From: Terriglobia bacterium
GTDB taxonomy: Bacteria; Acidobacteriota; Terriglobia; Bryobacterales; Bryobacteraceae
Assembly: GCA_021324185.1 (NCBI GenBank)
Contig: JAJPJN010000002.1
Coordinates: 1 to 56,222, forward strand
Length of the DNA stretch: 56,222 bases
Reading direction: 5' to 3'
The translations under genes were made by a program, and so were the position numbers. Under the pieces are notes generated by a model that did not search any database, had not been told where the DNA came from, and worked only from the letters and a program-made list of their open reading frames with translations. This document shows positions 6,498-39,889 of the stretch, piece by piece; the stretch's first letter is position 1; the number at the start of each line of letters is the position of its first letter.

Positions 6498-6581
6498 CTT
6501 CCTCCACGCCAAATCACGATACGCTTAAGTTAACTCATTCCAGTAGGAGCCCATTCAGCTTCTGTTCCTCTGAGCGCCAGA

Positions 6582-7992: not shown

Positions 7993-7994
7993 TT

Positions 7995-22460: not shown

Positions 22461-23350
22461 GGCAGCATCTTGCCGCCCGTAAGATCGAAAATTCCGCCGG
22501 TTATATAGCGCGAATCGTTTGAACAAAGAAACACGTAAATGGGCGCGAGATCGGCCGGTTGCGCCGGGCGTTCCATGGGCGAGCTCTTGCCGAATTCCTT
22601 TACGCTCTTGTCCGGCATCGTTGACGGAATCAGTGGGGTCCAAACGGGTCCCGGGGCAACTGCGTTGACGCGTATGCCCTGCTTAATCGCGAGCGCTGAA
22701 AGCGACTTTGTGAATGTCACGATGGCGCCTTTGGTGGACGAATAAGCAAGCAGCGTCGGGCTCGGGTCGTACGCCTGGACCGAGGTAGTGTTGACAATCG
22801 TGCTGCCCTGTTTCATCTTCGGCAGCGCCGCGCGGCAGAGATAAAACATCGCAAAGACATTCGTGCGGAAGGTTTTGTCCCATTCTTCAGGAGTAAGTTC
22901 CTCAATGGATTCATGAGTCATCTGGAAGGCGGCGTTGTTAATGAGGATGTCCAGCCCTCCGAACTCGTCGAAGGCTCGCTCGACAAGCTGCTCGCAATGG
23001 CGCGGGTCCTGAATATCGCCAGGGGCGATCACGGCTTTGCGGCCCGCGTCGCGCACCAGGCGTTCCGTCTCTCTTGCATCTTCGTCCTCGTTGAGATACG
23101 AAATCAGAACATCGGCGCCTTCACGCGCGAAGGCCAACGCCACTGCGCGCCCAATGCCGCTGTCTGCGCCCGTGATGATTGCTCTGCGGCCTTGCAGACG
23201 GCCGAAGCCTTTGTAGGATGACTCGCCGTAATCAGGCTAGTTCTGCATCTGCTCAGAACTGCCAGGAGGCGATTGTTTTGGTTCATCAAAAGGCGGTTTC
23301 GGCCCCTGTTCGCGAGGATCACGCCGTTCTTGTGTTTGTGTGCTGTTCAT
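22457..23350 (-). pseudogene. SDR-family oxidoreductase (glucose/ribitol dehydrogenase-like) interrupted by an in-frame TAG
   Basis: Read from ATG 23350, the frame encodes a 297-codon short-chain dehydrogenase of the general-stress YdaD-like type, with an N-terminal Pro/Gln-rich extension. Codon 38 (23237-23239) is TAG in the same frame. The sequence after it (PDYGESSYKGFG, then the NAD motif TGADSGIG) continues the family pattern, and the remainder is intact: NNAAF, NTTSVQAYDPS, the catalytic YSSTK and the C-terminal ITGGIFDLTGGKMLP. The only later start, GTG 23143, would remove the NAD-binding glycines. It is a recent nonsense mutation, a sequencing error, or read through. Confidence 0.75.
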
Positions 23351-23367
23351 GCGGGTTAGACACCCGC
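23351..23367 (-). promoter_or_regulatory. Six-base-pair hairpin directly before the SDR start
   Basis: GCGGGT and ACCCGC flank a five-base loop, between the VWFA stop and the SDR ATG. There is no T tract, so it is not a standard terminator. It occupies the position of a ribosome-binding site. Confidence 0.35.
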
Positions 23368-23373
23368 TCGAAA

Positions 23374-24291
23374 TCACATGCCTGCTCGCACAAATACGCG
23401 ATCTGGAGCGGCGACGCTTGCGTCCTTTTCGGGTATTGAGACTTTCAGGGGTTGCAGTCCTGATTTGTCTTCCGGCTTAGCCAGGAACGTCAGCAGGTAC
23501 TGGTTTTGCCACTGCGCCGCAATCTGCTGAAGGAAAGGTTGAAAGCTCACCGGCGAGCCAAAGCCAATCATGTAGGATTCGGCGCCCGTTTCGTCGGACA
23601 GCATCGATAGAAAATTCTGTCCCCATGTGTTGCGCCAGTAGCCGTGGCCCATGTGTCCGACGCTGGGGCTGTAGATGGTGTAAACAAGCACCCCGGCCTG
23701 TTGCGCGCTGCGGATGCCGGCTTCGACGTAGGGATTGTCCGGATTCCAGCCGCCGCCCAGTGCTTCGATGCCGCTGCTGATCATAATGATTTCCTTGCGC
23801 TCGTTACGGTTCGCCGGCCATTTCTTAATAGCGTCTGTGATTGAATCATACGGGCTCACGTCGGCGCCACCGGGCCCGAATGCAACGCGAATGCCGTTTG
23901 CCGCTGCGGCGTGATCGCGCGTCCAGTTAGCCGTAATTTGCGCCATGCCGTTTCGCATGTAAGCTACCGCGACTTCGAAATTCGGCGGAAGCGAGGTGAC
24001 GAACTGTTTCAACGTGGAGATTTCGGTGCCGAAAGTTCCGCGAGCGGAGTCGTCAATCAGCAGCATCAATTGCATTCCGCTGTTTGCCAGCGGCTTCAGC
24101 GACTCGACGGGTCTTTGTTCGCCGGCTTCCTTAACCCGAATATCTTGCATTTCGATCGGCGGAATCGTCGTTCCATGCTTGGGCTCGAGCGTGATGACGA
24201 CCGATGCCGGAACTCCAGAGGCGTTTGATTGCGCTGTGCCGGCCAGAGCCGCAACCAGGCAGACTAAGCCCCCGGTAAGTAGGTACTTCAT
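23374..24291 (-). CDS. VWFA-related secreted protein of the acidobacterial type
   Basis: A 305-residue protein with a signal peptide (residues 1-20) and a von Willebrand A-like domain. The metal-site-like segment is LMLLIDDSARGTFGTEISTLK, followed by VAVAYMRNGMAQI, IIMISSGIEALGGG and AGVLVYTIYSPSVG. This matches the VWFA-related family that is greatly expanded in Acidobacteriota. The DxSxS motif is modified to DDSARG. GGAG sits at good spacing before the ATG. It lies 21 bases after the last glycosyltransferase of the glycan operon and could share its transcript. Function unknown; likely adhesion or protein interaction at the surface. Confidence 0.87.
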   Translation of the reverse strand: MKYLLTGGLVCLVAALAGTAQSNASGVPASVVITLEPKHGTTIPPIEMQDIRVKEAGEQRPVESLKPLANSGMQLMLLIDDSARGTFGTEISTLKQFVTSLPPNFEVAVAYMRNGMAQITANWTRDHAAAANGIRVAFGPGGADVSPYDSITDAIKKWPANRNERKEIIMISSGIEALGGGWNPDNPYVEAGIRSAQQAGVLVYTIYSPSVGHMGHGYWRNTWGQNFLSMLSDETGAESYMIGFGSPVSFQPFLQQIAAQWQNQYLLTFLAKPEDKSGLQPLKVSIPEKDASVAAPDRVFVRAGM

Positions 24292-24312
24292 AGTTGAATA
24301 CTCCGTGATGTG

Positions 24313-25446
24313 CTACAGAAGTGCAGCGGTGGGAGAAGCTTTGAGCGCTGTCCCCTGCCTCTTTGAGCACGCCATGCTGTCCAAAGATGCAAGAACGTAC
24401 GTTTCGAGCTGTTCAGCCCGAACGGCAGCGGTGTGAAAATGCAGAGTGCGTTTGCGCGCCCGTTCGCCGATCTCGACACGATCGTCCTCGCTCATCTGTA
24501 AATAGGACGTAACATCGGCGGCGTTGCGTACCGGAAGTATTTCGCGGCCCGGAGTGAAGGTGGTTTCGAGACCAGGCCAGATGTCGGTGAGTATCGGTGT
24601 TCCGCAGGCCGCCGCCTCAAACAGCCGCACACTCGGCGAGTACCCTGCGCGTATCATGTCCTGGCGAGTCAGATTCAGTGTGAAGCGTTGCGAGTTATAG
24701 AATGAGCGATGCTCCTTAGCCGGTAAATGATTGCAGCGCTGGACGTTTTCCGGCCATGCAATGTATTCGGGGTATTGGGGTCCGGCAACCGCAAACCGGT
24801 AAGACGGATGGCTCTTGGCAACGTCCAGCATCAGATTCTGTAGCGCGGGTTGCCGGTCGGGCGCATACGTTCCGAGGTAGGCCAGATCCCATTTCTTAGC
24901 TGTTTTTTCCGGGTAATAAAGCGATGGGTCCACCGAACAATAGAGCTCCAGCGCACGGGGAGAACCAAGCCTTTGCTCGATGTAGCGGAGTGTCGGGCCT
25001 CCTGTAAACGACAAATATAGATGGTATTTAGGATAGAGATTGCGGCTGATGTACTCGCACTTACCGGTCCGCAAGTTAGCTAGCGTAACTGGGGTATCGA
25101 TGTCGTAAAAGGCGCAGCAGTTGCGAGCTACGGAAAGAACCCAACGGCCGACCGCTATACCTTCCGGCACGTAAGACCCCACGATTACAACGTCGGCGGA
25201 GCGGATCAAGCCCGCATAGGTGTCCTTCAACTCTTCGAGGCTGCTATAGAGCAAGATGCGGCAATAAGAGACGTGATCGAATTCGCGATTCTCTGCATAC
25301 CACGGGACATCGCGCTCGAGAAAAGTCACCGAATGCCCACGTCGCGAAAGTTCCTTGAGTAGCCCCCGGTAAGTGGTAGCGTGGCCGTTTCCCCAACTGG
25401 AGGTTATCGAGAGCCCCAAAAATACGAAGTTCAGGCGCGGATACAT
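24313..25446 (-). CDS. CgeB-like glycosyltransferase 1
   Basis: A 377-residue GT-B fold glycosyltransferase of the CgeB-like type. The N-terminal half has an acceptor-site motif (SSWGNGHATTYRGLLKELSRRG). The C-terminal half has the donor-site region RLFEAAACGTPILTDIWPGLETTF and REILPVRN. It is the last gene of the glycan operon and shares one base with the upstream gene. It is clearly paralogous to the next two genes, and the N- and C-terminal motifs line up in all three. No signal peptide, so it acts in the cytoplasm. Donor and acceptor unknown. Confidence 0.88.
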   Translation of the reverse strand: MYPRLNFVFLGLSITSSWGNGHATTYRGLLKELSRRGHSVTFLERDVPWYAENREFDHVSYCRILLYSSLEELKDTYAGLIRSADVVIVGSYVPEGIAVGRWVLSVARNCCAFYDIDTPVTLANLRTGKCEYISRNLYPKYHLYLSFTGGPTLRYIEQRLGSPRALELYCSVDPSLYYPEKTAKKWDLAYLGTYAPDRQPALQNLMLDVAKSHPSYRFAVAGPQYPEYIAWPENVQRCNHLPAKEHRSFYNSQRFTLNLTRQDMIRAGYSPSVRLFEAAACGTPILTDIWPGLETTFTPGREILPVRNAADVTSYLQMSEDDRVEIGERARKRTLHFHTAAVRAEQLETYVLASLDSMACSKRQGTALKASPTAALL

Positions 25447-26546
25447 CAGCGTTGCAACTCCAACTCAGGCGTGCGCTCGGAAAACAATTGCTGCAGCGTG
25501 GAATCCACAAGAGCGCCCCGTTGTGTGTACGTGTGATCGGCTAAAACGCGTCGGCGCGCCGCTTCGCCCATAACGCGCGCGCGGCGTGGCTCGACTTCCT
25601 GCACGAGCCGCGCGACTTCATCCCCCGAATGCGCGACCAGAACTTCCTCACCGGGCGTAAGAAACGAATCAATGCCTTCCCAGTAGTCGGTGATCAGGCA
25701 GGCAGCGGCGCCGGCTGCTTCGAATACGCGTGTCGCAGGCGAATAGCCGTTGCGCGCCATGCTTTCGCGGCTGATATTCAGAACCAGACGTGAGGAACAA
25801 TTGAACGCATTGTGATCTGCGGTGTAGACGTGCCCGGCATAACGAACGTTGGGCGGTAAGGGCTTGCCGGACCAGCCATTGCCGCCGAGCAGGAACTGCC
25901 GTTCGGGGGTAAGCCGGGCGGCATGCAGGAAGAATTCGTCGACGCGGGCCTCCCGATCCGGGAGGCGATTGCCGAGAAACGACAGGTCGCATGCGAAGCG
26001 CGGATCGGGATCGACCGGAAAATGAACGTCGGGGTCGAATGCGTTGTAGACCGGGATGCAATTGCGCGCTCCCAGCGCGCGATAGCGGTTGACGACGGGA
26101 TGACCGCCGCCGTAGGTGAAGATCAGATCGAATTTGGGAAGAGCGGCGCGGAAGGGATCGGCTGGATTGGCCGATATGCGATCAAGCGTCGCAGGCGCGT
26201 CTACATCCCAAAAAATCTTGCTGGCCGGCGCAGCTAGACTCGCGATACGCTGTTCCAAAAATTCATCCAAAACACCGACGCCACTTGCTTTCACGAGCAC
26301 GTCCGCCTGCATTGAAATGGCCAAATGCCGGTTGACCTGCGCCAGATCCGTAGGATCGTACACGACAACACGAGCCCAGTCAGGGTCCGGAATATCGCGG
26401 TGCTTTTGCCGGTCATACGCATCGGGCTCGTAGAAGGTAATTTCATAGCCGCGATGAGCGAGGGCGCGAAGCACGCCACGATAGTATGTCGCTGCGCCGT
26501 TCCAATAAGCCGAAACCAGGCTGGAACCCCAAAAGGCGATCTTCAT
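25446..26546 (-). CDS. CgeB-like glycosyltransferase 2
   Basis: A 366-residue paralogue of the flanking genes. The N-terminal motif is SAYWNGAATYYRGVLRALAHRG and the C-terminal one is RVFEAAGAAACLITDYWEGI with a following GEEVLVAHSG. It overlaps gene 3 by four bases (26543-26546) and gene 1 by one base, so all are translated from one message. It should add one sugar to a carrier-linked oligosaccharide. The specificity probably differs from its sisters, since the donor-site loop is Ala-rich here where the others have ACG. Confidence 0.88.
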   Translation of the reverse strand: MKIAFWGSSLVSAYWNGAATYYRGVLRALAHRGYEITFYEPDAYDRQKHRDIPDPDWARVVVYDPTDLAQVNRHLAISMQADVLVKASGVGVLDEFLEQRIASLAAPASKIFWDVDAPATLDRISANPADPFRAALPKFDLIFTYGGGHPVVNRYRALGARNCIPVYNAFDPDVHFPVDPDPRFACDLSFLGNRLPDREARVDEFFLHAARLTPERQFLLGGNGWSGKPLPPNVRYAGHVYTADHNAFNCSSRLVLNISRESMARNGYSPATRVFEAAGAAACLITDYWEGIDSFLTPGEEVLVAHSGDEVARLVQEVEPRRARVMGEAARRRVLADHTYTQRGALVDSTLQQLFSERTPELELQR

Positions 26547-27667
26547 GCGTGCACCTCTTCGGGCACGGATACCGGGCGAATGCTTTCGTAGATACCGAGC
26601 AGCTCGTCTACTCGACGCGCACAGGTGTGGCGTGACCGAATGGTTTCGAGCCCGTGCACGGCGAGACTTTCCGCCAGTGCGGGATCGTTTAGGACATCTT
26701 GCAAATATTGCCGCATCTGCTGGCCGCTTTGAGCCATCAAGAAATCTTCGCCGACGCGAAACAATCCTTCTTCATCGCGCCAGGGCGCCGATACGAGCGG
26801 GATGCCGCACGCTAAAGCCTCAAACGGGCGGATGGTCGGAATGCCAGGCAATTCGCGTGTATAAGGCCGCCGCGGAACGTGCACTGTCGCGCGGAACTGC
26901 GCAAACACCGCCGGTACTTCGAAATTCGGCAGCCAGCCGCCGTAGCGAACCCCGCATCGGCCCAGTTCCTCTAGTGCCTCCGCCGGATAGCGCACGCCGT
27001 ACACCTCCGCTTGTAGCTTCAGGTTGTGTACGGGTTCCAGAAAAAACTCGCGCAGTTCTTCGCTACGCTCCTCATCGCCCCAGTTGCCTATCCAGACTAC
27101 GTCTCCGTTTTTTTGCGCTCCCGGACGCGGATAGAACACGCGCGCGTCGGCGGCCTCATGCCATACATGCGCCTGCCGTCCCCAGCCATGCCGTTCGTAT
27201 GCCCGCTTGAGCGAGGCACCGTAGACGAGCACGCCATCGTAATTGGAAAGATCGAAGCGCGACAGTTCCTGCCGGGCGGTGAGGGCGCGGTGATGGGTGT
27301 CATGAAAGAACGCGCGAAGCCGCGTGTTGTACCGCCGGTACTCGCCGATTGCGGAAACAACCTGCGGCTCATTCCATTCATGGACTAGCACCAGGTCGAT
27401 ACCGTCCAACCACTTGTCTAAAGCGAGATGATCCGGTAAGTAGCGCGTACTTCTCAGATGCGGGAATGCACGGTCAAAGGCGGCGAGAGCGCCAAGGCCC
27501 CGTTCTTCGATCAGATTCCGCCGGCTCCACGAGTTCTCCGGCTCAAATATGCGGACCTCATATCCCCGGCTTTGCAGCTCCGACGCTACCCCGCGCAAGA
27601 AATGTGCATTGCCATGGTTCCAATCGGAAACTAGCGAGTGATAGAACATCGCAATACGCAGTTTCAT
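26543..27667 (-). CDS. CgeB-like glycosyltransferase 3
   Basis: A 374-residue paralogue with N-terminal SDWNHGNAHFLRGVASELQSRG and C-terminal RPFEALACGIPLVSAPWRDEEGLF. It overlaps the GT4 gene by four bases upstream and CgeB-like gene 2 by four bases downstream. It lies in the middle of the glycosyltransferase block. Fold and role are inferred as for the sister genes; the sugar is not predictable. Confidence 0.87.
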   Translation of the reverse strand: MKLRIAMFYHSLVSDWNHGNAHFLRGVASELQSRGYEVRIFEPENSWSRRNLIEERGLGALAAFDRAFPHLRSTRYLPDHLALDKWLDGIDLVLVHEWNEPQVVSAIGEYRRYNTRLRAFFHDTHHRALTARQELSRFDLSNYDGVLVYGASLKRAYERHGWGRQAHVWHEAADARVFYPRPGAQKNGDVVWIGNWGDEERSEELREFFLEPVHNLKLQAEVYGVRYPAEALEELGRCGVRYGGWLPNFEVPAVFAQFRATVHVPRRPYTRELPGIPTIRPFEALACGIPLVSAPWRDEEGLFRVGEDFLMAQSGQQMRQYLQDVLNDPALAESLAVHGLETIRSRHTCARRVDELLGIYESIRPVSVPEEVHA

Positions 27668-28695
27668 GCGAGCGCGCCTTCCCGAACTGCTAACGATTCA
27701 TAAGCCCGGCAATATTGCTCCACGGCAACTGCTGGGCAATATTTCCCTGCATGAATTTGCGCCCGGCGCGCGAGCGACTCGCGTTCAGCCGCATCGTTCG
27801 CGATGCGCGAAAGGACTCGAACCCACTCCCCCGCATCTCGCGGGTTCACAAAGATTGCCGCGCCGTCCCACAGTTCGCGAAGCGAAGGGATATCGGACAG
27901 AATCAGGCAGCATTGCGCGCGCGCGGCTTCGAGCACCGCCAGCCCGAACGGTTCATAGAGGGCCGGGTGAACGTAAAGCGCTGCGTGCTGCATCTGGTGC
28001 AGCAATTCTTCATGTGAAAGCGAGCCGAAAATTCGAACCGGCCAAGGCAGTCGAGCGGAGATCTGCTCTAGCATTTCTATGTTTTTGCCTTTATCCCAGA
28101 TCCGGCCGGCGGCCAGGTAGAACGGCTCCTTCGTTTGGCCGCGGTAAAGCGGTGACAGGCTGAAATTGTGTATCACAGTCACGCGGCTCGCCGGAAGCCC
28201 GTAATGGGCCGTGAGCGCGCTCGCCATAGCGGCCGATGGCGCCACTACCAGGCCGGCGGCACGCAATCCGGCGCTGACCCGCGCATGATATTCGCCCCAA
28301 TCGCTTTCTGGAGGGACGGCGCCGAAGACTGCCTGCCACCAGGAGTACACGCACGAGTGCGCCACCACCAATACCGGAGCTTGCCACCGCAAAGCGGCAT
28401 GTGTGTAGCCGTTGAGATGAATGACGTCCGGTTCAAATTTCGCCGCTAGCTGCAGTAGCCAGGATCCGGCGCGATCGACATCCGCCCAGGGCTGCTGCAT
28501 CCATTCGAGTTTGTAGTCGCTTTCACAAAGCGTGACGCCGGGCAAAGCTGCCAGGCGTTGTTTCTTCGCACTATCCGGGCGCGGGCCCATGGTCGCGAGC
28601 AGGATTTCGGCGCCGCGTTGAGTTAACTGTTCGATGAGATCGAGCGAATATTGCCAAACACCGCCGGCCGCATCGGCCGTCATCAGGATTCTCAT
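27664..28695 (-). CDS. Glycosyltransferase family 4 protein
   Basis: A 343-residue GT-B retaining glycosyltransferase. It begins MRILMTADAAGGVWQYSLDLI, the glycine-rich acceptor loop of GT4 enzymes. Further motifs are VLVVAHSCVYSWW, TVIHNFSLSPLY, LAAGRIWDKGKNIEML and the donor-nucleotide segment PALYEPFGLAVLEAARAQCCLILSDI, which carries the EPFGxxxxE (EX7E) signature. It overlaps its neighbours on both sides by four bases. As the only GT4 member it may add the first or a branching sugar. Confidence 0.92.
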   Translation of the reverse strand: MRILMTADAAGGVWQYSLDLIEQLTQRGAEILLATMGPRPDSAKKQRLAALPGVTLCESDYKLEWMQQPWADVDRAGSWLLQLAAKFEPDVIHLNGYTHAALRWQAPVLVVAHSCVYSWWQAVFGAVPPESDWGEYHARVSAGLRAAGLVVAPSAAMASALTAHYGLPASRVTVIHNFSLSPLYRGQTKEPFYLAAGRIWDKGKNIEMLEQISARLPWPVRIFGSLSHEELLHQMQHAALYVHPALYEPFGLAVLEAARAQCCLILSDIPSLRELWDGAAIFVNPRDAGEWVRVLSRIANDAAERESLARRAQIHAGKYCPAVAVEQYCRAYESLAVREGALA

Positions 28696-29978
28696 CGGAG
28701 ATGACCGCTGACTTCCAACTCGATCAGGGGCTGCGGGCGCTGCTCTTGAATGTCGCTAAAATGCTCGAACCCTTTGAGATAGGCTTCGTGCGCGCGTTCC
28801 CATGCGAAATCGTCGGGCGGTCCCCACATGCGCGTGTATTCCGGCGAGCCTGGATACGGGAACAGCGGAACGGGCTTGTTGGCCCAGACGCCATGAGCTT
28901 CCAGACTCACGCGCCAGGACTCCACGGCATCGGCATCATCTTCGCTCATGGCGAGAAGGTTCGCCTGAACAAAAGGAACCAGCCGCTTCGCGAATACGAG
29001 CCGGCTTGTCAGTTCTTCAGTCGACATTTTGCACTTTTTGTCGAGATATGCCCGGCCCGCCTCGGTGATGCTCTCGACGCCGGCTTCAATCGAGACACAG
29101 CCGGCTTTTGCCAGAGCTCTGATCGCGTCTTCGCTCCAGAGATCGATGCGCGTTTGCACACCGATCTTGATCTTGCGTTCTGCCAACGCGGCGAGAAGCG
29201 CAGCATCCGGAAGAAAAATCTCGTCAATGAAGTATAGATACTCGATCCCTTGCGCAATCAGGCGATCGAGTTCTTCCAGAATCACCGGCAACGGGCGTTT
29301 GCGGTAATTATTCCGGAAATTATCCTTGGCGCAAAACGTGCAGTGATAGGGGCAGCCGCGCGAGGCCTCCATTTCCGCTCCCGGCCCTGCCGGTTCCGCG
29401 TCGAATCGATGGTGATGATGGTGGTGTTTCGCGATAGCTTCGTCCGGCCAGACGAGCGCAGGCAGGCGTTTCATGTCGGCTGCGCGGTTAGGACCGCGAA
29501 CGACGATCTCTTCTCCCCGGCGAAATGCAATAGATTGAACCGAATCGAGATCGTCCGCCAGTTGCGGCAGAATCTCTTCGCACTCGCCGAGCACCACGAA
29601 ATCGGCATTCAGTTTGCGCAAGGCGGCGCGCGGGGTGGTCGAACCATGCGGGCCCACAATCACCTGTTTCGCCGGAATAGCGCGCAGTTCGGACGCCAAT
29701 TCCTGCGGCACACGTAATTCCGGTGGTGCACAGCGCCAAAACAGATAAGTCGGAGCAGTGGTGATGACGACGAAATCCGGCGCATAGGCGTCGGCTCGCT
29801 TCACGATATCGCTGTAACTAAGATCGTCCAGGTGCCCGTCGATCAGCAACGCATCGTGCCCGCTTTGCTCGAGCAGAGCTTTCGAGTAACCGAATTCCAA
29901 TGGTAAGTGTGGCTCGCGGCAGCCGAAATAGATGCTGCCCTCAAAGGTCCACGGGGGATTTATGAGTGCATAGCGCAT
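28692..29978 (-). CDS. B12-binding domain radical SAM protein with a natural His6 tract
   Basis: A 428-residue enzyme. Residues about 1-165 form a B12-binding-like domain (LIDGHLDDLSYSD, VIVGPHGSTTPRAAL, FVVLGECEEILP). The radical SAM domain follows with the cluster motif SRGCPYHCTFC (Cys209, Cys213, Cys216) and EYLYFIDEIF and VSIEAGVESI strands. Six consecutive histidines (185-190) lie between the domains. I recall a TIGRFAM-style family of oligosaccharide-cluster B12 radical SAM proteins ('rhizo-twelve' system) with this architecture, but could not verify it. ATG 29978 shares its first base with the upstream stop. Likely reaction: C-methylation or a radical rearrangement on a sugar or lipid of the pathway. 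Confidence 0.9.
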   Translation of the reverse strand: MRYALINPPWTFEGSIYFGCREPHLPLEFGYSKALLEQSGHDALLIDGHLDDLSYSDIVKRADAYAPDFVVITTAPTYLFWRCAPPELRVPQELASELRAIPAKQVIVGPHGSTTPRAALRKLNADFVVLGECEEILPQLADDLDSVQSIAFRRGEEIVVRGPNRAADMKRLPALVWPDEAIAKHHHHHHRFDAEPAGPGAEMEASRGCPYHCTFCAKDNFRNNYRKRPLPVILEELDRLIAQGIEYLYFIDEIFLPDAALLAALAERKIKIGVQTRIDLWSEDAIRALAKAGCVSIEAGVESITEAGRAYLDKKCKMSTEELTSRLVFAKRLVPFVQANLLAMSEDDADAVESWRVSLEAHGVWANKPVPLFPYPGSPEYTRMWGPPDDFAWERAHEAYLKGFEHFSDIQEQRPQPLIELEVSGHLR

Positions 29979-31039
29979 CAAGCCACCATCACTTTCGATT
30001 GCTCTATCAGCCGGGGCCGCTCGAGGTACCACTCAAATAATGCCCGGATTCCCTCACGGATTCCGATGGCCGGCGCCCACCCGAGCGCTTTGCGGAACTT
30101 CGATGTGTCCGCCACATACCATTTCTGGTCGCCCAAGCGCTCAGGCCCCCAATCGATTTCGACACGTTTTCCTATCAGCGCGCTAATTTCATCGATTAAC
30201 TCGAGCAGGCTTGTGCTGTTCGCCGGGCCCCCTCCTAAGTTGAACGGCTCTCCCGCTGTTCTATCTATATGCTCGATTGCGAGTTGCATGGCGCGCACCA
30301 GGTCATCTACGAAGAGCAGATCTCGCACCTGCTTGCCATCACCGTAGATGGTGATGGGCTCACCCTTCATCGCCTGGCGAATGAAATGCGCCACCCATCC
30401 CTGATCTTCGGAGCCGAGTTGATACCTTCCATAGATACAACTCATGCGAAAGATAGTTGCGGGAAGTGCATAAGAGCGCGCGTAATCGAGGACGTACTGG
30501 TCGGCTGCACCCTTTGAGCAACCATATGGTGAAAGAAACGCTAACTGCTGCCGCTCGCTGATTCCGGATGCCGCGAGGGGTACGTCTTGCGGTTCCCAAC
30601 GTGTCGCAGTTTTTCGCAGTGCAACTCCGGCGAGTTTGCCATAAACCTTATTGGTAGATGTAAACAGCAGCGGCGGCGGGTCGTTCGAACGCCGGATCGC
30701 TTCGAGCACGTTCAGCGTGCCGGTAAGATTCGAATGGAAGTCGAGCAGCGGATCCTCAAGGCTGGTGGTAACAGCAACCTGCGCGGCGAAGTGATAAACC
30801 GCTTTCGCGCTCTGCACCGCTTTAAACAATTCTTCCGAATTGCGCACATCCGCGTGCGTAAAGCATACGCGCCCGGAGTATCTATTTTGCAACTCGCTCA
30901 GGTTCTGTTCGACACCTGGCCGGCTCAAGTTATCGAGTATATGGACCGCTTCTCCGGACTGCAGGTAGTGGCGGGCGACGTTAGTTCCGATAAATCCTGC
31001 GCCGCCGGTGATGAGTATGTAACGGCGCTGCATTTCCAT
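29978..31039 (-). CDS. NAD-dependent sugar-nucleotide epimerase/dehydratase (CDP-paratose 2-epimerase-like)
   Basis: A 353-residue extended SDR. The NAD motif is GGAGFIG (12-18), and the catalytic YGCSK has Tyr172 and Lys176 after FTSTNKVYG. The segments GAADQYVLDYARSYALPATIFRMSCIYG, EDQGWVAHF and YGDGKQVRDLLFVDDLVRA strongly recall CDP-tyvelose/paratose epimerases. The start may be ATG 31039 or 31033, the latter better spaced from the AGGA overlapping the upstream stop. It is three bases from the other epimerase gene. It should make an activated sugar for the glycosyltransferases of the cluster; the exact base and sugar are inferred only. Confidence 0.9.
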   Translation of the reverse strand: MEMQRRYILITGGAGFIGTNVARHYLQSGEAVHILDNLSRPGVEQNLSELQNRYSGRVCFTHADVRNSEELFKAVQSAKAVYHFAAQVAVTTSLEDPLLDFHSNLTGTLNVLEAIRRSNDPPPLLFTSTNKVYGKLAGVALRKTATRWEPQDVPLAASGISERQQLAFLSPYGCSKGAADQYVLDYARSYALPATIFRMSCIYGRYQLGSEDQGWVAHFIRQAMKGEPITIYGDGKQVRDLLFVDDLVRAMQLAIEHIDRTAGEPFNLGGGPANSTSLLELIDEISALIGKRVEIDWGPERLGDQKWYVADTSKFRKALGWAPAIGIREGIRALFEWYLERPRLIEQSKVMVA

Positions 31040-31042
31040 GTC

Positions 31043-32161
31043 CTAAACCACCAGACCCCGCGAAGTAAGTTCTTCGCGCATTTCGTTAAAACGATCGTGG
31101 GCAGTTTGTTGCTCCAGCCAACCGGCGAGATCGCGGATACCCTGTTCCAAACTAATCTTCGGCCTGAAGCCAAGCACTTCGCGCGCACGCGAAATATCTG
31201 GAAAGCAATGACGGATATCGCCGACGCGATACTTGCCGGTAATTTCCGGCTCGATATTCGTGCCGAGGACGCGCGCCAATTTGCGCGCCACATTGCTCAC
31301 GCTTATTGTTTGGCCGCTACCGACATTGAAAACCATGTCGTGCGCCGCATCTACTTCGAGCGCCAGCCGGCAGGCCTGCGCCACGTCGTATACGCTCACG
31401 AAATCGCGTAGCTGCTCGCCGTCTTCGAAGATCATCGGCCGCTTGCGATTGAGCAGGCGCGACGCAAAGATAGCTAGCACGCCGGTGTAAGGATTTGAGA
31501 GCGATTGAAAGGGACCGTAGGCGTTAAAGAATCGCAGCGCCACTGTAGGAATGCCATAGGCGCGGCCGACCACGAGGCACATCTGTTCCTGATCGTATTT
31601 GGAAAGGGCGTAGATAGAAGCGAGCGAAGGTTGCTTTGTTTCCGGCGTTGCCACCGGGCGCAAAGGGCGTCCATCCGGCGTGGCCATTTCCCACTCGTGC
31701 GCCTTCAACTGCGCAGCCGTACGGCTCGCAAACGGATAGGGATCCCCTTCGGGAGTAACATAGAGGCCCTCGCCGTAAATGCTCATACTGGAGGCGACAA
31801 TCAGCTTGCGAACGGAACTCTTGACCAAGCGTTCCAGCAAAACTGCCGTGCCCAGATTGTTGACGCTGGTGTATTCGGCAATCTGATACATGCTCTGGCC
31901 GACTCCCACCAACGCCACAAAGTGATAGACGGCATCGACGCCTTTGAGAACTTCGTCGACGATCTCCGGGTTACGGACATCTCCCAGGATAAATTCGACG
32001 TTCTTGTTGAGATAGTCAGGGCGATCCGGGTTATCGCCATGCACCTGGGTAACTAGATTGTCGAGGACTCGTACGTGATATCCGGCCTTCAATAACTCCG
32101 TTGCTACATGTGAACCAATAAAGCCAGCACCGCCTGTAATGAGAACGGTTCTTGTTTTCAT
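31043..32161 (-). CDS. NAD-dependent epimerase (dTDP-L-rhamnose 4-epimerase-like)
   Basis: A 372-residue extended SDR. The NAD motif is GGAGFIG (10-16), followed by the SSMSIYGEG segment and the catalytic pair Tyr184/Lys188 in YALSK. The long insert between them (EGLYVTPEGDPYPFASR) and the LRFFNAYGPFQSLSNPYTGVLAIF segment resemble the dTDP-rhamnose 4-epimerase and related group. It is the first gene of the tightly packed part of the operon, preceded by a 217-base gap where a promoter may lie. No clear Shine-Dalgarno is seen. Confidence 0.9.
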   Translation of the reverse strand: MKTRTVLITGGAGFIGSHVATELLKAGYHVRVLDNLVTQVHGDNPDRPDYLNKNVEFILGDVRNPEIVDEVLKGVDAVYHFVALVGVGQSMYQIAEYTSVNNLGTAVLLERLVKSSVRKLIVASSMSIYGEGLYVTPEGDPYPFASRTAAQLKAHEWEMATPDGRPLRPVATPETKQPSLASIYALSKYDQEQMCLVVGRAYGIPTVALRFFNAYGPFQSLSNPYTGVLAIFASRLLNRKRPMIFEDGEQLRDFVSVYDVAQACRLALEVDAAHDMVFNVGSGQTISVSNVARKLARVLGTNIEPEITGKYRVGDIRHCFPDISRAREVLGFRPKISLEQGIRDLAGWLEQQTAHDRFNEMREELTSRGLVV

Positions 32162-32378
32162 GTTGTTGGTCTGTGTGTCCTTTTAAGAAAATGCACAGCA
32201 ACTCCCGCAAAAGTACTTACGTACCTGATAACGACAGAGACGCGAGTTCGCCGGAGGTGTTTGCGTTTAACACCAGAACTATAAGAGCCTCATGTACATA
32301 GAAAGCTTTGTAGCTTCCTTTGTTACTACTTACCTTTGTTGAAGCTAAAAGCGCATCCGTATAAATACCGGGTGTGCT
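32162..32378 (-). promoter_or_regulatory. 217-base intergenic region inside the glycan cluster
   Basis: This AT-richer gap is the only real break in the cluster and may hold a promoter for the eight downstream genes. An imperfect dyad GAAAGCTTTGTAGCTTCC and GTACTTACGTAC are seen, but no sigma70-type pair is convincing. No RNA gene or ORF is recognised. Confidence 0.3.
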
Positions 32379-33293
32379 CTAGTGTTGGGCGTAGCGCCGA
32401 GTCATGGCTGCGCAGAAATCCGCGTATTGTTGCGGGTTTGATGGTGGGCTGGTGTGGTGCGCCCGAACGCCGCAGTGCTCGGGAGTAAAACAAAACGTAA
32501 CCGTGAGGTCGAAGCCTTCCAACAATTTCATCTGGCGATCAAACCAATGGAGCGCATTCGGACGAAACGAATCCGCCCAGCTCAAGCCCGTTCGCAGTTT
32601 GCGCACGTTAAAGTCGCGCAGCGCGTTCACACCGGCTTCAAGGCGGTGGTCTTCAAAATGGAACCATTGGCATACCCCCAAATCGGGAACAAATTGCGAA
32701 AAAGAACGCGCCGCCAGCTTAGGGCTGCCGTCTTCCCGAAAAAGGCCCATATAGAAGTGACGGTAATAAGAAGAACCCTCGCTCTCACGATGGCGCGTGG
32801 TAGCGGGCCAGGCGCGCGGCAAATCGAAGAGGCTGTACCAGTAGACGTGATCGGAGCGCGGAAGCAATAGCTCCGCCGTGCGTTTTAGTCCGAACTCCTG
32901 CACTTCCTCAGCTCCGAATGAGGAAGCGCCCACTTCTGAAATCCAGATCGGCTTATCGGTCACGGCTCGGACTTCCGCTAACTTGTCCGGCCATTCGTGA
33001 ATCGTCCAATGATTCCAGTCGAGCGGAAAACCGTGCACCGCTACAACGTCCACGTGATCGAGCACGCCGAACTCGCCCATGCGGGTGATGAACGCGGGGT
33101 CGATTGGCGAAATACCCCCAAGTACGCGCTTTACTGACCGGTTCTCTGCGCGTACCGCCTGCGCGGCCAGTTTTACCATTTCGGCGTAGACAGACCAGTC
33201 TTTATCGATCTCGAAATCCCAGTGCGAGAGGTTGTTCGGCTCATTCCAGAGCATGACGGCTTCGATCATAGTTGGCAGTACGGAAGTGAGCAA
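32379..33293 (-). CDS. GH39-like glycoside hydrolase (beta-xylosidase-like) with permuted motif order
   Basis: A 304-residue clan GH-A-like protein. The acid/base motif LWNEPNN (Glu18) is almost at the N-terminus, the probable nucleophile strand KPIWISEVGASSFG (Glu120) follows, and YWYSLFDLPRAWP is near 150. From about 205 comes sequence that normally opens such a barrel: CQWFHFEDH, VRKLRTGLSWAD (232-241) and TVTFCFTPE, ending in FCAAMTRRYA, which in ordinary GH39 proteins runs into the LWNEPN strand. This indicates a circularly permuted barrel. Start: TTG 33293 or ATG 33269; neither has a good ribosome site. It has no signal peptide and lies 15 bases after the methyltransferase gene, in the same frame. 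Confidence 0.8.
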   Translation of the reverse strand: MLTSVLPTMIEAVMLWNEPNNLSHWDFEIDKDWSVYAEMVKLAAQAVRAENRSVKRVLGGISPIDPAFITRMGEFGVLDHVDVVAVHGFPLDWNHWTIHEWPDKLAEVRAVTDKPIWISEVGASSFGAEEVQEFGLKRTAELLLPRSDHVYWYSLFDLPRAWPATTRHRESEGSSYYRHFYMGLFREDGSPKLAARSFSQFVPDLGVCQWFHFEDHRLEAGVNALRDFNVRKLRTGLSWADSFRPNALHWFDRQMKLLEGFDLTVTFCFTPEHCGVRAHHTSPPSNPQQYADFCAAMTRRYAQH

Positions 33294-33308
33294 CTCAGCG
33301 GCAAAAAC

Positions 33309-34049
33309 CTAAAGAGCGGCCACGGGAATTGGATGCAGATAAGCGCCTTCATCGCACCTGCAAATGAATACTTCCGGTTCAGGATTCGATTCAATTCGGA
33401 AGCCTGCGCTGCGCAACACAGCTTCTGCGCAGGCGCGATTCGGAATCCACCAGTTCGTTGGATCCTGCGAGTAGTAGTGTTCCACGAAATGCATTTTGGG
33501 GAATCCGGGATGGTCGAAAATCGCGTGTTCCCAGAACGGGTAATCTTCTTCGACGTGCGGGCGCGTCCGGCTGCCGCGCAACATCGACTGAAAAATGAAC
33601 CAATCTTTGGTTACATGCTGGCGCAGAAGGTCGAGCGCAAGCAGCGGGTAGCGCAAGTGGTAAAAAACGCCCATAAACAAGACCAGGTCGAAACGTTCTT
33701 TCAATTTTGGGACCTCATAGACAGACATGTTCCGGAACTCGATATTCATTCCGAGTACGCCTGCGGCAAAACGTGCCTGCGCCAGGTAGCCTTCGTCGTG
33801 ATCAATGCCGACTACGCGCTGCGCTCCGCGCCGTTTCATCTCAATGGAATAGAATCCGCCGTTACATCCGATGTCCAGAACAGTCAATCCAGTGAGATCC
33901 GCCGGAAGGCTCTCGCGAAACTTCTGCCATTTAGTAGACGGATAGTCTCCCAGGAAATGATCCGGGGCCGTTTGGACGCCTCGCAAGTTTAGATTGTGAA
34001 ACCATGGTCCTAACGCTGTAACCTTTTGCTCGATTTCGGTGGTTGTCAC
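33309..34049 (-). CDS. SAM-dependent methyltransferase of the glycan cluster
   Basis: A 246-residue class I methyltransferase. Motif I is LDIGCNGGFYSIEMKRRG, followed by VVGIDHDEGYLAQA, then FDLVLFMGVFYHLRYPLLAL, a form like tRNA U34 carboxymethyltransferase or sugar methyltransferases. The C-terminus has WWIPNRACAEAVLRSAGF. I recall a family of this type ('Rta_06860' methyltransferases) linked to the same kind of gene cluster. The start is taken as GTG 34049; the longer frame to 34124 runs into the divergent gene. TAGAAT at 34066-34071 on the minus strand may be its -10. The target is probably a sugar hydroxyl or carboxyl. Confidence 0.87.
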   Translation of the reverse strand: MTTTEIEQKVTALGPWFHNLNLRGVQTAPDHFLGDYPSTKWQKFRESLPADLTGLTVLDIGCNGGFYSIEMKRRGAQRVVGIDHDEGYLAQARFAAGVLGMNIEFRNMSVYEVPKLKERFDLVLFMGVFYHLRYPLLALDLLRQHVTKDWFIFQSMLRGSRTRPHVEEDYPFWEHAIFDHPGFPKMHFVEHYYSQDPTNWWIPNRACAEAVLRSAGFRIESNPEPEVFICRCDEGAYLHPIPVAAL

Positions 34050-34056
34050 TGTTGTT

Positions 34057-34653
34057 ATGACTCGTATTCTACTGATCCGGCATGCGCATACCGATCTGTC
34101 GGGCAAAGTTTTGTATGGCCGCATGCCTGGTATTCATCTGAGCGAGCAAGGACGGCAGGAAGCGATGAAACTTGCCCGCGCGCTTCACGACCGGTACGAA
34201 ATCAGCCAGATTGTATCCAGTCCGATGGATCGGGCCAGGGAAACAGCCGAAGAGATTGCTGCCCTCTATCGCATTCAGGTCGAGGTTGACGAAGAATTCG
34301 AGGAGTTGGACTTCGGTGAATGGATGGGTAAATCCTTTACGGAACTGATGCAGGACGAGCGCTGGAAGCTATATAATCGCCGCCGCTCGTTGACCGGTGC
34401 TCCCGGTGGCGAATTTATGCTGCAAGTACAAATTCGCGCCTGGAACGCGATTGAACGGCTCGTAGGAGATACAGAGCGGGAATCGACGTTCGCTATCATC
34501 ACTCACGGTGACGTAGTACGCGGCTTGCTCATGCTGTTTCTCGGTATGCCGATTGATCACATACACCGGCTGGAAGTCTCGACTGCATCCCTGAGCGAAG
34601 TCATTTTAGGCCGGGCATTTCCACAAGTAATCCGGGTGAATCAGACGTTCTGA
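34057..34653 (+). CDS. Histidine phosphatase family protein
   Basis: A 198-residue phosphoglycerate-mutase-like phosphatase. The catalytic RHAHT motif (Arg8, His9) is at the N-terminus. The second basic site has SSPMDRARETAEEI, the acid donor is in EELDFGEWMG, and the second histidine is in THGDVVRG. It may dephosphorylate a sugar phosphate or a phosphorylated carrier. The gene is divergent from the methyltransferase, with only seven bases between their start codons, so their control regions lie inside each other. A GTG at 34039 is an alternative start. Confidence 0.92.
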   Translation: MTRILLIRHAHTDLSGKVLYGRMPGIHLSEQGRQEAMKLARALHDRYEISQIVSSPMDRARETAEEIAALYRIQVEVDEEFEELDFGEWMGKSFTELMQDERWKLYNRRRSLTGAPGGEFMLQVQIRAWNAIERLVGDTERESTFAIITHGDVVRGLLMLFLGMPIDHIHRLEVSTASLSEVILGRAFPQVIRVNQTF

Positions 34654-34682
34654 AGTCATGAGTGCAAGTCAAGTAAGGAAAC

Positions 34683-36173
34683 ATGCTGACTGAAAACATT
34701 GAAGCAAGCAGAAGATATTTGCTGGACCTGCTGCTCGCTGAACTTCGAGAGTTCGTTATTGTTCTGCTCGACGTAGACGGAAGATTTTTATCCTGGCATC
34801 CTGGCGTGCGTGTTTACTTCGGTTATGAAGCACACGAATTTATTGGAAAGCCGTTACACATTCTTTTCCCGGAGCCTGACCGCTCCTCCGGTGCGGTGGA
34901 GCGGGAATTGGAAACAGCCGCGGCCGCGGGAAAAGCCTCAGATACGCGTTTGTTGGTTGATAAGCACGGTAAAGCCTTACTGGTTGAGGGTGTAACTGTG
35001 GGCCTGCGGGAAGAAGCCGGTAACTTAGCCGGTTTCGGCAAAGTCATACGTGACGTCACAGAACGGCGCGCCACGGAAGAACGACTAAAGGCGCTAACCA
35101 GGGCATTAGAGCAATCGACTGTTTTTATAAGGCACTTAGATGGAGAGATTACGCACTGGACAAAAGGCTGCGAAAGACTCTATGGCTGGACGGCTGCTGA
35201 AGCAGTAGGCGCAAATTCCTGGGCACTGCTCAATACGACATTCCCACAATCGGTGGAATCGATCAAAGACCAGTTATTGAGGAGCGGGTTTTGGCGCGGA
35301 GAATTGGGCCAGACTCGTCGCGATGGCAGCTACGTGTACGTCTCGGCCGACTGGGTCTTGTTTTCCAATGAAAAGGGCGAGCCCTCGACCGTCATCTGCA
35401 CTCACACCGACATTACTCCCCGGTTACAGATTCAGGGCGAGCTCGAAGTAGCGAACGCGCAATTAGAAAAAATGACGCTCGAATTGGAGCGTTCGAACAG
35501 TGAACTGGAGGAGTTTGCGCGGATAGCATCGCACGATCTAAGCGCGCCCATTACCAGCACACGCTGGCTAGTGGATCTTCTGTCCGCAAAGCACGGCAAG
35601 AACCTGAACGAGGATGGTCAAAAGATCCTCAAGCAAATTGCAACCGGTTTGCAGCGGATGGGCGAGCTTATTGATGCCGTTTTACAGCACGCCACAATCG
35701 GAACGGCACCCATCGGCTCCGCGGAGGGTTCGGATTCCAGCGCCGCTCTGCTGGCAGCTATGGAAAATCTTAGAAGAGATATTGAAACTTCGGAAGCGAA
35801 TATCTCTTATGGAGAGCTTCCGGCGGTGCCCATTACGCTTCAGGCCATGACGCAACTGTTCCAAAATTTGCTATCGAACGCAATCAAGTATCGGAAACCG
35901 CAAACCGCTCCGCAGGTGACGATCAGTGCTGAGCGCGAAGGCACGGATTGGAAATTCAGTGTGATGGATAACGGCATCGGTATTGAGCCGGAATGGCTGG
36001 AGCGCATCTTTCAACCGATGCAGCGCCGGCACGGCCCGGAAATCGCAGGCAGCGGTATTGGCCTGGCAACCTGTAGAAAAATTGTGACCCGGGCAGGCGG
36101 GAAAATTTGGGCCGAATCCGATCTGGGCCAGGGTTCAACTTTTTATTTCACGCTGCCGGCGCCCGCGGAATAG
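34683..36173 (+). CDS. PAS-domain sensor histidine kinase
   Basis: A 496-residue soluble kinase with two PAS domains (about 15-128 and 130-255), a short coiled coil (ELEVANAQLEKMTLELERSNSELEEF), a HisKA domain with the phospho-accepting His284 in ASHDLSAPI, and a HATPase domain with N-box NLLSNAIKY, G1 DNGIGI and G2 GSGIGLATC. There are no membrane segments, so it senses a cytoplasmic cue. The AAGGAAAC before the ATG is a good ribosome site. The closest regulator gene is the NarL-type one at 37278, separated by the opposite-strand GT9-like gene, so the pairing is uncertain. It converges with that gene with 39 bases of overlap. Confidence 0.93.
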   Translation: MLTENIEASRRYLLDLLLAELREFVIVLLDVDGRFLSWHPGVRVYFGYEAHEFIGKPLHILFPEPDRSSGAVERELETAAAAGKASDTRLLVDKHGKALLVEGVTVGLREEAGNLAGFGKVIRDVTERRATEERLKALTRALEQSTVFIRHLDGEITHWTKGCERLYGWTAAEAVGANSWALLNTTFPQSVESIKDQLLRSGFWRGELGQTRRDGSYVYVSADWVLFSNEKGEPSTVICTHTDITPRLQIQGELEVANAQLEKMTLELERSNSELEEFARIASHDLSAPITSTRWLVDLLSAKHGKNLNEDGQKILKQIATGLQRMGELIDAVLQHATIGTAPIGSAEGSDSSAALLAAMENLRRDIETSEANISYGELPAVPITLQAMTQLFQNLLSNAIKYRKPQTAPQVTISAEREGTDWKFSVMDNGIGIEPEWLERIFQPMQRRHGPEIAGSGIGLATCRKIVTRAGGKIWAESDLGQGSTFYFTLPAPAE

Positions 36174-37151
36174 AATCAATTCCCCGATCAGCCGGTCTAC
36201 GGCTGCGCTCCAGTTACCCGCTTCCGGCTGGCGAAAAAGCTTCATCGTCGGATACCAGGGCGAATCATCACGGTTGAGCATCCATCGCCAATCGCATTCG
36301 TAGGGCAACAGCGTCCACACCGGAACAGCTAATGCGCCTGCCAGATGGGCGGTCATAGTATCAACGCTGATCACCAGATCTAAATTCCTGAGCACGCGCG
36401 CCGTGGCATGCAACGTGGATACCTGGTCATGGAGGTCACAAACATTCGGCCATGCCGCTAATTCTTCGTGTTCAGGACCAGCCTGCAATCCAAAAAAAGA
36501 AATGCCGGGAATGCCGAAAGCGCGCGAGAGTTGTTCGAGTGCAATCGAACGAGCCGGATTAAATGTGCTGGAGGTCCATGCGATGCCTACGCACAAGTTG
36601 TTTGAGGCACGGGAAGCTAAGGTGCTAGCCTCCCCCTGTGCGTAGATATAGGGCACATTGCGAGGAATGGTATCTACCGTGGTTCGGAAAATACGTGGCA
36701 GCTCCATAATTTCAATCTGTTGATCCCATCCGGGGTCAGGGTCCGACCAGGTGATCACGTCGTGCGCCAGATTCGACTGCGATAACAGCACCTTCAATTT
36801 CGGCGGTGCCTCGATGACCACGGACCGGGCGATTCCGGCCACGAGCGGCGCGTAGCGAATGAACTGAATCGTATCCCCCAGGCCGTGAAGGCAACGGATC
36901 AAAACGCGATTTCCATTGAGCGGGCGCCCGTCCCAAAAACGGTTGGGATCGTGCCTGGCGCGTCCGTTAATCCGGTCGCTTTCCCGCCAGGCTTTTTCAA
37001 AATCGCCGAGGAGCATATGGCATTGCCAGCGTCCTGCAGCACACAAATCCGGGTCACACTGAGCATTTTCTGCGGCATCAAATTGAAGCAGCGCCTCGTG
37101 GACTCGCAGCGCCCGCAAGGAGTTTTCAGCTTCGGCTAGCCAACTCTGCAT
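36135..37151 (-). CDS. TPR/glycosyltransferase family 9-like protein
   Basis: A 338-residue protein. The N-terminal ~85 residues look like two or three TPR-type helical pairs. The remainder resembles GT9 heptosyltransferase-like domains: RVLIRCLHGLGDTIQFIRYAPLV, VGIAWTSSTFNPARSIALEQL, ISFFGLQAGPE and LDLVISVDTMTAHLAGALAVPVWTLLPYECDWRW. It is likely a glycosyltransferase acting on a surface glycan or protein. It lies near the glycan operon on the same strand but separated by two plus-strand genes, so membership is uncertain. No Shine-Dalgarno is evident. Confidence 0.87.
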   Translation of the reverse strand: MQSWLAEAENSLRALRVHEALLQFDAAENAQCDPDLCAAGRWQCHMLLGDFEKAWRESDRINGRARHDPNRFWDGRPLNGNRVLIRCLHGLGDTIQFIRYAPLVAGIARSVVIEAPPKLKVLLSQSNLAHDVITWSDPDPGWDQQIEIMELPRIFRTTVDTIPRNVPYIYAQGEASTLASRASNNLCVGIAWTSSTFNPARSIALEQLSRAFGIPGISFFGLQAGPEHEELAAWPNVCDLHDQVSTLHATARVLRNLDLVISVDTMTAHLAGALAVPVWTLLPYECDWRWMLNRDDSPWYPTMKLFRQPEAGNWSAAVDRLIGELILFRGRRQREIKS

Positions 37152-37277
37152 CTTTCAGCCGCAGGGAGAAAAATTGTGGCTTCAAACTAGTAACTTCTAC
37201 GGGGTTTTAGTGTATCTAACAAAGCGGGAACTCTCGCCCGCCTATGTTGGATGTACCACTCTCGGTGGAGGCAACAT

Positions 37278-37913: not shown

Positions 37914-37937
37914 CCAGCGGGGTCGCGCGCGCCCGGA

Positions 37938-38108: not shown

Positions 38109-38197
38109 GAATCTCCTCCTCCGGGAACGATGCATCTCTCATGCCAAGCTGCTAAGTAGTTGTTCTGGCGTACTCTTCAGGTTCATAAGAAGTAAAT

Positions 38198-39832: not shown

Positions 39833-39889
39833 AAGCCAGCCGCTGATCTTCACATGAAAGCGCGATCAGCCGCGAAAGCCTGCCTTCCG

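Follow-up and report, generated by a model that had tools for sequence, protein, structure and literature searches.

A two-module gene cluster around a B12-binding radical SAM protein, with a circularly permuted glycosidase, likely builds a small modified oligosaccharide

Introduction

The closest described counterparts of the gene cluster studied here are two NCBIfam families of hypothetical equivalogs, TIGR04295 (B12_rSAM_oligo) and TIGR04290 (meth_Rta_06860). The cluster lies on contig JAJPJN010000002.1 of a Terriglobia bacterium (assembly GCA_021324185.1), in a stretch of 56,222 nucleotides that we call the window, and its B12-binding radical S-adenosylmethionine (SAM) protein, rSAM, and its SAM-dependent methyltransferase, MT, pass the cut-offs of these two families, respectively. 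The system is thus not unseen, since both families are already catalogued, and the short name "oligo" of TIGR04295 points to the same neighbourhood; the two entries differ from what we describe in that they name no product and say nothing on two modules, a permuted glycosidase or a link to myo-inositol-phosphate synthase (INO1). Our literature search found no paper on either family, nor any that combined B12-binding, radical SAM and CgeB, and the label "rhizo-twelve", put forward in the initial annotation of this DNA, appeared neither in that search nor in the NCBIfam output.

By function, parallels are found in mycobacteria. The methylglucose and methylmannose polysaccharide pathways, which we take to be alike in uniting cytosolic glycosyltransferases, a histidine phosphatase, a methyltransferase and a hydrolase, include the phosphatase GpgP, a relative in the Protein Data Bank (PDB) of the histidine-family phosphatase of our cluster (HisP); mycothiol synthesis presumably shares with it the combination of INO1 and a family 4 glycosyltransferase (GT4). 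The window cluster differs from these pathways by its B12 radical SAM protein and its several CgeB-like glycosyltransferases, and the likeness is drawn from function.

Conservation of the cluster and its two modules

Relatives were gathered by a pattern scan of a genome collection of 84,980 species, which gave 272 relatives of rSAM; the best 80 loci, many of which end early at contig ends, were used for comparison. In tblastn searches, all 80 hold rSAM, together with the epimerases EpiA (75) and EpiB (72), the glycosyltransferase GT4 (77) and the CgeB-like glycosyltransferases CgeB1 (73), CgeB2 (72) and CgeB3 (68), the seven core genes that form module A (EpiA-EpiB-rSAM-GT4-CgeB1-3). Other genes are detected in fewer of them: MT in 44, a glycosidase (GH) of either of two forms in 51, HisP in 33, a third epimerase in 27, a GT9-like gene, INO1 and a nucleotidyltransferase (NTase) in 20 each, and a fourth CgeB-like gene (CgeB4) in 19. 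Among the 53 loci longer than 21 kb, the seven core genes share one strand in 49, and the other four carry six of them (EpiB is missing in L017 and L021, and CgeB3 is not on that strand in L026 and L029), with exact order and strand kept in 48; over the whole set, the core genes that are present stand in the same order in 78 of 80 loci, a grouping beyond chance. The initial annotation had proposed an oligosaccharide-type pathway built around the radical SAM protein and had named conserved synteny of at least six genes as its check; the synteny found goes past that threshold and supports the proposal.

The loci represent Acidobacteriota, Alphaproteobacteria, Myxococcota, Cyanobacteriota and Nitrospirota. 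The rSAM tree, built from 78 proteins and with a bootstrap that had not settled, shows one change each for Pseudomonadota, Myxococcota and Cyanobacteriota and three for Acidobacteriota, with which the window's protein groups. Of 247 evenly drawn Acidobacteriota genomes, G000, G196 and G231, and no others, pass the cut-offs of TIGR04295 and TIGR04290 and match the permuted-GH profile at 1e-20, a coincidence with a chance of 1 in 2.48 million under a simple count that assumes independence and ignores relatedness. Such near-constant gene order, from Acidobacteriota to Bradyrhizobium, Methylobacterium, Sorangium, Nitrospira and cyanobacteria, implies that the product should be needed.

The uniformity of the gene set over five phyla also bears on the idea that the cluster is a surface polysaccharide locus (for an O-antigen, a capsule or an exopolysaccharide) whose flippase, polymerase and ligase are encoded elsewhere in the genome, since such loci are usually variable. 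Epimerases accompanied by several glycosyltransferases are typical of them, the glycosidase domain that other genomes fuse to EpiB has as its best solved relative PslG (5.8e-05), which we take to be part of the Psl exopolysaccharide pathway, and the linked GT9-like gene of 20 loci is heptosyltransferase-like. Against this, two scans of linked genes recognised no Wzx, Wzy, polyprenyl-phosphate transferase or dedicated exporter: one covered the 20 open reading frame (ORF) families present in at least five of the 80 loci (family 13 being unassigned), the other the 25 commonest of the 144 Pfam families in 143 flanking ORFs of 25 chosen loci. The absence of Wzx/Wzy and of an ABC exporter had been noted from the window, and in its relatives no recurrent Wzx/Wzy or dedicated exporter was seen. 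In the flank scan, ABC_tran matched four and ABC_membrane three of the 143 ORFs, and in one genome (L156) the module B region is followed by an ABC transporter of the branched-chain amino acid type. All in all, we regard a surface polysaccharide as rather unlikely. The GT9-like proteins, 32-56% identical and in L128 encoded next to GH, are possible accessory glycosyltransferases of the system.

Because HisP, MT and GH, here called module B, sit apart from module A in other genomes, the 217-base gap in the window is the border between two co-occurring, separable modules. In its full form, module B reads INO1-HisP-CgeB4-NTase-MT-GH and can sit elsewhere in the genome. This order is complete in five of eight module B regions away from the core (L152, L155, L157, L158 and L159) and partial in the other three (L153, L154 and L156); L160 and L161 instead hold MT beside the core. 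Module B adjoins the core in L068, lies about 37 kb from it in the genome of L064 and about 0.96 Mb away in that of L062, while the window has the modules adjacent, in a compact version without NTase or CgeB4. Where one pathway had been opposed to two unrelated operons, co-occurrence across genomes upholds the former, with the correction that the block consists of two separable modules. This full gene list, second module included, makes the pathway testable in Methylorubrum or Azospirillum.

The permuted form of GH found in the window is absent from the locus stretch in 39 of the 80 loci, in several of them because the contig ends. Whole-genome searches, which covered 29 of these 39, found MT above the TIGR04290 cut-off in 27 genomes and a permuted GH in 23 (442-532 bits; one of them, in G258, has an in-frame TGA), and NTase lies upstream of MT in 20 of the 23 permuted-GH stretches. 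The remaining six genomes (L027, L029, L030, L072, L074 and L088) carry the EpiB-fused GH. None of the 29 genomes lacks both forms, so that the GH reaction seems to be needed.

A circularly permuted glycosidase

In clan GH-A, the WNEP motif with the acid/base residue is normally found on strand 4. The window GH, listed simply as a glycosidase in the initial annotation, is a barrel of this clan that is circularly permuted, its two halves being encoded in swapped order. With PslG and the Caulobacter beta-xylosidase 4m29 of family GH39 it shares the barrel, the WNEP acid/base and a nucleophile three strands later; it differs in starting at beta4 and ending with beta1-3, within about 300 residues. 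Its 304 residues have WNEPN at positions 16-20, with the predicted acid/base Glu18 after the first strand and the predicted nucleophile Glu120 (WISEVG) in the fourth, both invariant in 39 sequences, and with beta1-3 at the C-terminal end. The AlphaFold2 model built with these 39 sequences (pLDDT 87.3, pTM 0.87) has eight strands and puts Glu18 directly after strand 10-15 and Glu120 inside strand 116-121, so that the modelled catalytic pair would stand three strands apart, as beta4 and beta7 do in clan GH-A; the canonical strand order is not found, the strands being rotated by three (beta4 first, beta1-3 last). Foldseek returned as top matches a GH10 xylanase, the GH39 xylosidase 4m29, a galactanase and a glucuronidase (E-values from 1.5e-04), in partial alignments of about 159-206 columns with TM scores of 0.34-0.45, and full-length alignments gave a large root-mean-square deviation, which would be expected for a rotated barrel and is not proof by itself.

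The comparison with canonical homologues is more direct. In ten loci examined, a GH domain encoded between EpiA and EpiB matches the window GH as two blocks in swapped order; the blocks lie in one frame, joined within about 10 bases (overlapping in L026), and this frame is the open frame of EpiB. A profile of about 289 positions, built from the ten fused domains and run over the window and 82 loci, recovered 42 permuted proteins, in 41 of which the leading block starts at about position 97-108 (219 in the cut L015) and the trailing block ends at about 100-103. The window GH matches positions 103-288 and then 2-103 of this hidden Markov model (HMM), and rotating it at residue 202 turns two matches (127 and 62 bits) into a single one of 196 bits over positions 2-288. 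A misread start or a frameshift as the origin of the odd glycosidase is ruled out, since the swap is visible in 41 of the 42 copies, the remaining one (L049) being truncated where its locus ends. The enzyme also carries a warning for annotation: its Pfam match, weak in itself (PF11790, 23.6 bits, cut-off 21), covers only residues 6-156, so that domain searches can report just half of a permuted enzyme. A limited literature search found no report of a permuted clan GH-A enzyme; permuted glycosidase barrels as such are not new, GH70 being a known permutation with respect to GH13.

Canonical-order domains were found by the profile search in 16 other loci, all in one open frame with EpiB. Both glutamates are kept in seven of them (L026, L029, L030, L072, L074, L083 and L088), and the nucleophile is lost in eight (L018, L022, L023, L024, L025, L031, L041 and L068), six of which have lost the acid/base too (L068 retains it, and in L025 the position is not aligned); in L027, the nucleophile is kept and the front half falls outside the frame. 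These losses go with the presence of the permuted enzyme. In genomes that also carry a permuted GH, the nucleophile of the fused domain is lost in eight of nine cases, and in genomes without one it is kept in six of six (L026 is outside this comparison); Fisher's test of eight of nine versus none of five, with L027 left out, gives 0.003. Six of the eight losses come from Acidobacteria, so that the number of independent losses may come down to three (Acidobacteria, Nitrospira and Skermanella). The exception is L083 (genome G255), where a permuted GH coexists with a fused one that retains both glutamates. From the pattern of conserved residues, the best reading is that the permuted GH, putatively a retaining glycosidase, stands in for the canonical domain fused to EpiB in other genomes. 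A permuted enzyme that exists beside decaying and intact canonical homologues offers a natural experiment on the cutting and re-joining of a TIM barrel and on the transfer of its role to the new form.

Predicted enzymes and proposed pathway

The rSAM protein matches TIGR04295 over the entire model (positions 1-422 of 422), has a B12-binding domain (PF02310, 37.2 bits, cut-off 32.1) and shows a CxxxCxxC motif for a 4Fe-4S cluster (C227, C231 and C234) that is invariant in 78 sequences. The folds nearest to its model (pLDDT 88.6) are TsrM, OxsB, MgmA and AprD4, which share with it this motif; rSAM differs from them by forming a family of its own, by its oligosaccharide gene context and by an invariant HxHHRF segment (residues 203-210) just ahead of the radical SAM domain. 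This segment and the invariant C38, C101 and C312 might form a metal or substrate site. By analogy with the fold relatives, C-methylation of a sugar is our guess for the reaction.

Several of these relatives, namely AprD4, OxsB and TsrM, are natural-product enzymes, and one may imagine that the cluster makes a specialised metabolite, such as an aminoglycoside-like pseudo-oligosaccharide, exported as an antibiotic or a signal. INO1 and a phosphatase in module B recall cyclitol antibiotics and the presence of the system is patchy (three of 247 Acidobacteriota), although the rSAM tree, with the reservation on its bootstrap, is better matched by mainly vertical descent than by rapid exchange, the two scans mentioned above recognised no recurrent resistance or exporter gene in the flanks, and the identified families include no aminotransferase. 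We judge this alternative to be quite unlikely.

EpiB is probably a C2 epimerase of a CDP-sugar, as judged from its resemblance to CDP-tyvelose 2-epimerase (TyvE). The TNK motif occurs in 70 of 70 sequences and YGCSK in 68 of 70, with the Thr/Tyr/Lys triad of short-chain dehydrogenases/reductases (SDR), and these motifs match those of TaTyvE (9RL0) as given in PMC13098431, which states that the changes N125A and K126A abolish activity. EpiB departs from TyvE in that the VAM segment reads VAV in the window and in most relatives, and no tyvelose pathway gene was recognised beside it. EpiA is GalE-like and carries SSMSIYG and YALSK. HisP, whose PDB relatives are a PhoE-type phosphatase, a phosphoserine phosphatase and the glucosyl-3-phosphoglycerate phosphatase GpgP, is encoded between INO1 and CgeB4 in the fuller versions of module B, a neighbourhood of INO1 and HisP that suggests an inositol-phosphate acceptor.

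Taken together, these genes likely encode, in two modules, a cytosolic pathway dedicated to making a small modified oligosaccharide, for which we infer the substrates, the order of steps, the inositol head, the solubility of the product, the rSAM reaction and the enzyme activities. The two NAD-dependent epimerases, GalE-like EpiA and TyvE-like EpiB, would set up nucleotide sugars, and GT4 and CgeB1-3 would add residues one by one, for four to five transfers in all. The rSAM protein would introduce a change that is hard to reach on a sugar, most likely a C-methylation, a deoxygenation or a rearrangement being possible too. Module B would contribute the phosphatase HisP, the methyltransferase MT (probably for O-methylation) and the retaining glycosidase GH and, in its fuller version, INO1, the nucleotidyltransferase and a further CgeB transferase. 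The transferases would then extend an inositol-phosphate acceptor, HisP would take off the phosphate, methylation would come next, and GH would trim or transglycosylate the glycan, so that the product of the full form is perhaps inositol-headed. The initial annotation had all of sugar activation in place; here it went too far, as no sugar nucleotidyltransferase was found in the block.

Alternatively, the product could be a membrane glycolipid or a lipid-linked glycan, such as an inositol lipid that bears sugars. INO1 is linked in 20 of the 80 loci, MT, GT4 and the CgeB enzymes could work at a membrane face, and one region from Azospirillum (L155) has a PIG-L homologue and a GT4 next to module B. 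Yet the identified families of the conserved set include neither a phosphatidylinositol synthase nor an acyltransferase, and none of the pathway proteins has a membrane segment by a simple hydropathy rule (no 19-residue window reaching 1.6). We therefore consider a lipid product unlikely. The pair in L155 (Azospirillum soli, 6418-8301), a GT4 and a PIG-L deacetylase, presumably resembles MshA and MshB of mycothiol synthesis.

With INO1 present in module B and bradyrhizose being a sugar fused to inositol, the bradyrhizose operon was tested as a candidate. PMC4743980 proposes an 11-gene operon for the bradyrhizose O-antigen, names STM 3809 as a carrier and gives gdh primers made for strain ORS285. 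These primers have eight mismatches in the 17 kb stretch from STM 3809 (L055), and at best six mismatches of 23 in nine related loci; within the stretches examined, identity of the two systems is rejected as far as gdh is concerned.

Several observations weigh against the pathway proposed above. The inositol head in particular may not hold in the window's genome: its version of module B carries no INO1, the only INO1 of the genome is distant (24.5% over 163 residues), no NTase orthologue was detected there (best match 27%, 22.9 bits), and for CgeB4 nothing was found besides the genome's own three CgeB genes; tblastn did not find NTase, CgeB4 or INO1 in the loci of the nearest relatives (L009-L014) either. 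In the two cyanobacterial genomes behind L029 and L030, module A is accompanied by a fused GH and no MT is found at 1e-40, G188 and G197 have MT relatives under the cut-off (253.5 and 173.8 bits) with rSAM and GH not passing, L035 and L049 break the core gene order, and Acidobacteriota are split into more than one clade in the rSAM tree. DxHxxG, a cobalamin-ligand motif that is not universal among B12-dependent radical SAM enzymes, is absent from the rSAM consensus, which has DAQLxxL at D65 instead, and B12 binding is only predicted. Finally, the hydropathy rule is blind to signal peptides, and the product would be extracellular if genes elsewhere supplied an exporter or a lipid carrier.

A more specific version of the oligosaccharide pathway is tentative and, in our opinion, somewhat doubtful: a so far undescribed pathway, present in five phyla, would make an inositol-headed, C- and O-methylated oligosaccharide, the rSAM protein would carry out an unprecedented sugar modification, and the active permuted GH would have replaced an ancestral canonical domain fused to EpiB, which afterwards decayed to a pseudoenzyme that may still hold substrate or pass it on to the epimerase.

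Layout of the locus and neighbouring genes

All nine ORFs of the minus strand, and the histidine phosphatase gene that diverges from them, were recovered at the positions reported initially (Table 1), and the HMM check proposed for the radical SAM protein and the methyltransferase placed both above the curated cut-offs.

Table 1. Features of the cluster, with positions in the 56,222-nucleotide window.
Feature	Description	Coordinates	Strand	Evidence
CgeB3	CgeB-like glycosyltransferase	24313..25446	-	PF13524 9.3e-37
CgeB2	CgeB-like glycosyltransferase	25446..26546	-	PF13524 2.6e-40
CgeB1	CgeB-like glycosyltransferase	26543..27667	-	PF13524 3.9e-33
GT4	GT-B glycosyltransferase, family 4	27664..28695	-	PF13439, PF00534
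rSAM	B12-binding domain and radical SAM enzyme, TIGR04295	28692..30032	-	700.7 bits, cut-off 400
EpiB	CDP-tyvelose 2-epimerase (TyvE)-like	29978..31039	-	PF01370; 9rl0 1.6e-82, 1orr 9e-77
EpiA	NAD-dependent SDR, UDP-glucose 4-epimerase-like	31043..32161	-	PF01370; best PDB 4zrm 1.3e-47
Gap	217 bases, border of module B (HisP/MT/GH) and module A (EpiA to CgeB3)	32162..32378	-	
GH	Circularly permuted clan GH-A (GH39/PslG-like) glycosidase	32379..33293	-	Swapped BLAST/HMM blocks, AlphaFold2 model, Foldseek
MT	SAM-dependent methyltransferase, TIGR04290 family	33309..34124	-	380.5 bits, cut-off 300
HisP	Histidine-phosphatase-family phosphatase	34039..34653	+	PF00300 3.8e-44
GT9-like	GT9-like protein	36135..37151	-	PF01075 19.3 bits, under its cut-off of 22

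The genes are tightly packed, with 15 bases between MT and GH, 217 between GH and EpiA, three between EpiA and EpiB and overlaps of 1-4 bases at the other junctions, except for EpiB and rSAM. With the rSAM start as listed, these two overlap by 55 bases, an overlap that shrinks to one base (TGATG) if rSAM starts at the ATG of codon 19 (29978), the probable start, where family similarity sets in. The TIGR04290 match in MT spans 33360-34034 and the true start of MT is probably near 34049, that of HisP probably the ATG at 34057; these likely divergent starts would be about 8 bases apart and leave no room for promoters between them. No promoter-like match was found in the 217-base gap, the count of consensus promoters (3 versus 6.1 expected) was uninformative, and an Rfam scan of 20000-40000 gave nothing above the gathering threshold.

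The GT9-like gene lies outside the block first annotated, between a PAS histidine kinase (34683-36173), kept beside the cluster at 46-60% in L010, L011, L013 and L014, and a LuxR-type response regulator (37251-37913), kept at 63-64% in L010 and L011; kinase and regulator possibly control the cluster. Downstream of the cluster, a secreted-looking VWA-like gene (22457-24291) is kept in the near relatives L009, L010, L012, L013 and L014. An SDR near the cluster is kept at 78-80% in L010 and L012, and six more loci match it at 25-61%, which may be general SDR matches.

Among the neighbours in other genomes, a bacterial DNA topoisomerase IB family is found near the core in six of the 80 loci (L026, L072, L076, L078, L083 and L088), with two members confirmed by Pfam and five ORFs among the 143 of the flank scan. 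Families of Zn-alcohol dehydrogenase, SRPBCC and DUF1003 each recur in 6-7 loci, and Ku in two flank ORFs. These neighbours look stress-related and hint at a role of the cluster in the survival of drought or stress. A desiccation role by way of Ramlibacter was followed up without success: the passages searched of PMC3164672 mention desiccation and contain neither "Rta_06" nor "radical SAM". A defence system was also rejected, PADLOC matches being weak (17.7, 30.5 and 43.4 bits). Elsewhere in the window's genome (G000), contig C16 holds four ORFs with B12-binding domains in a row (29911-36211; 469-600 amino acids), one of which scores under the Pfam cut-off.

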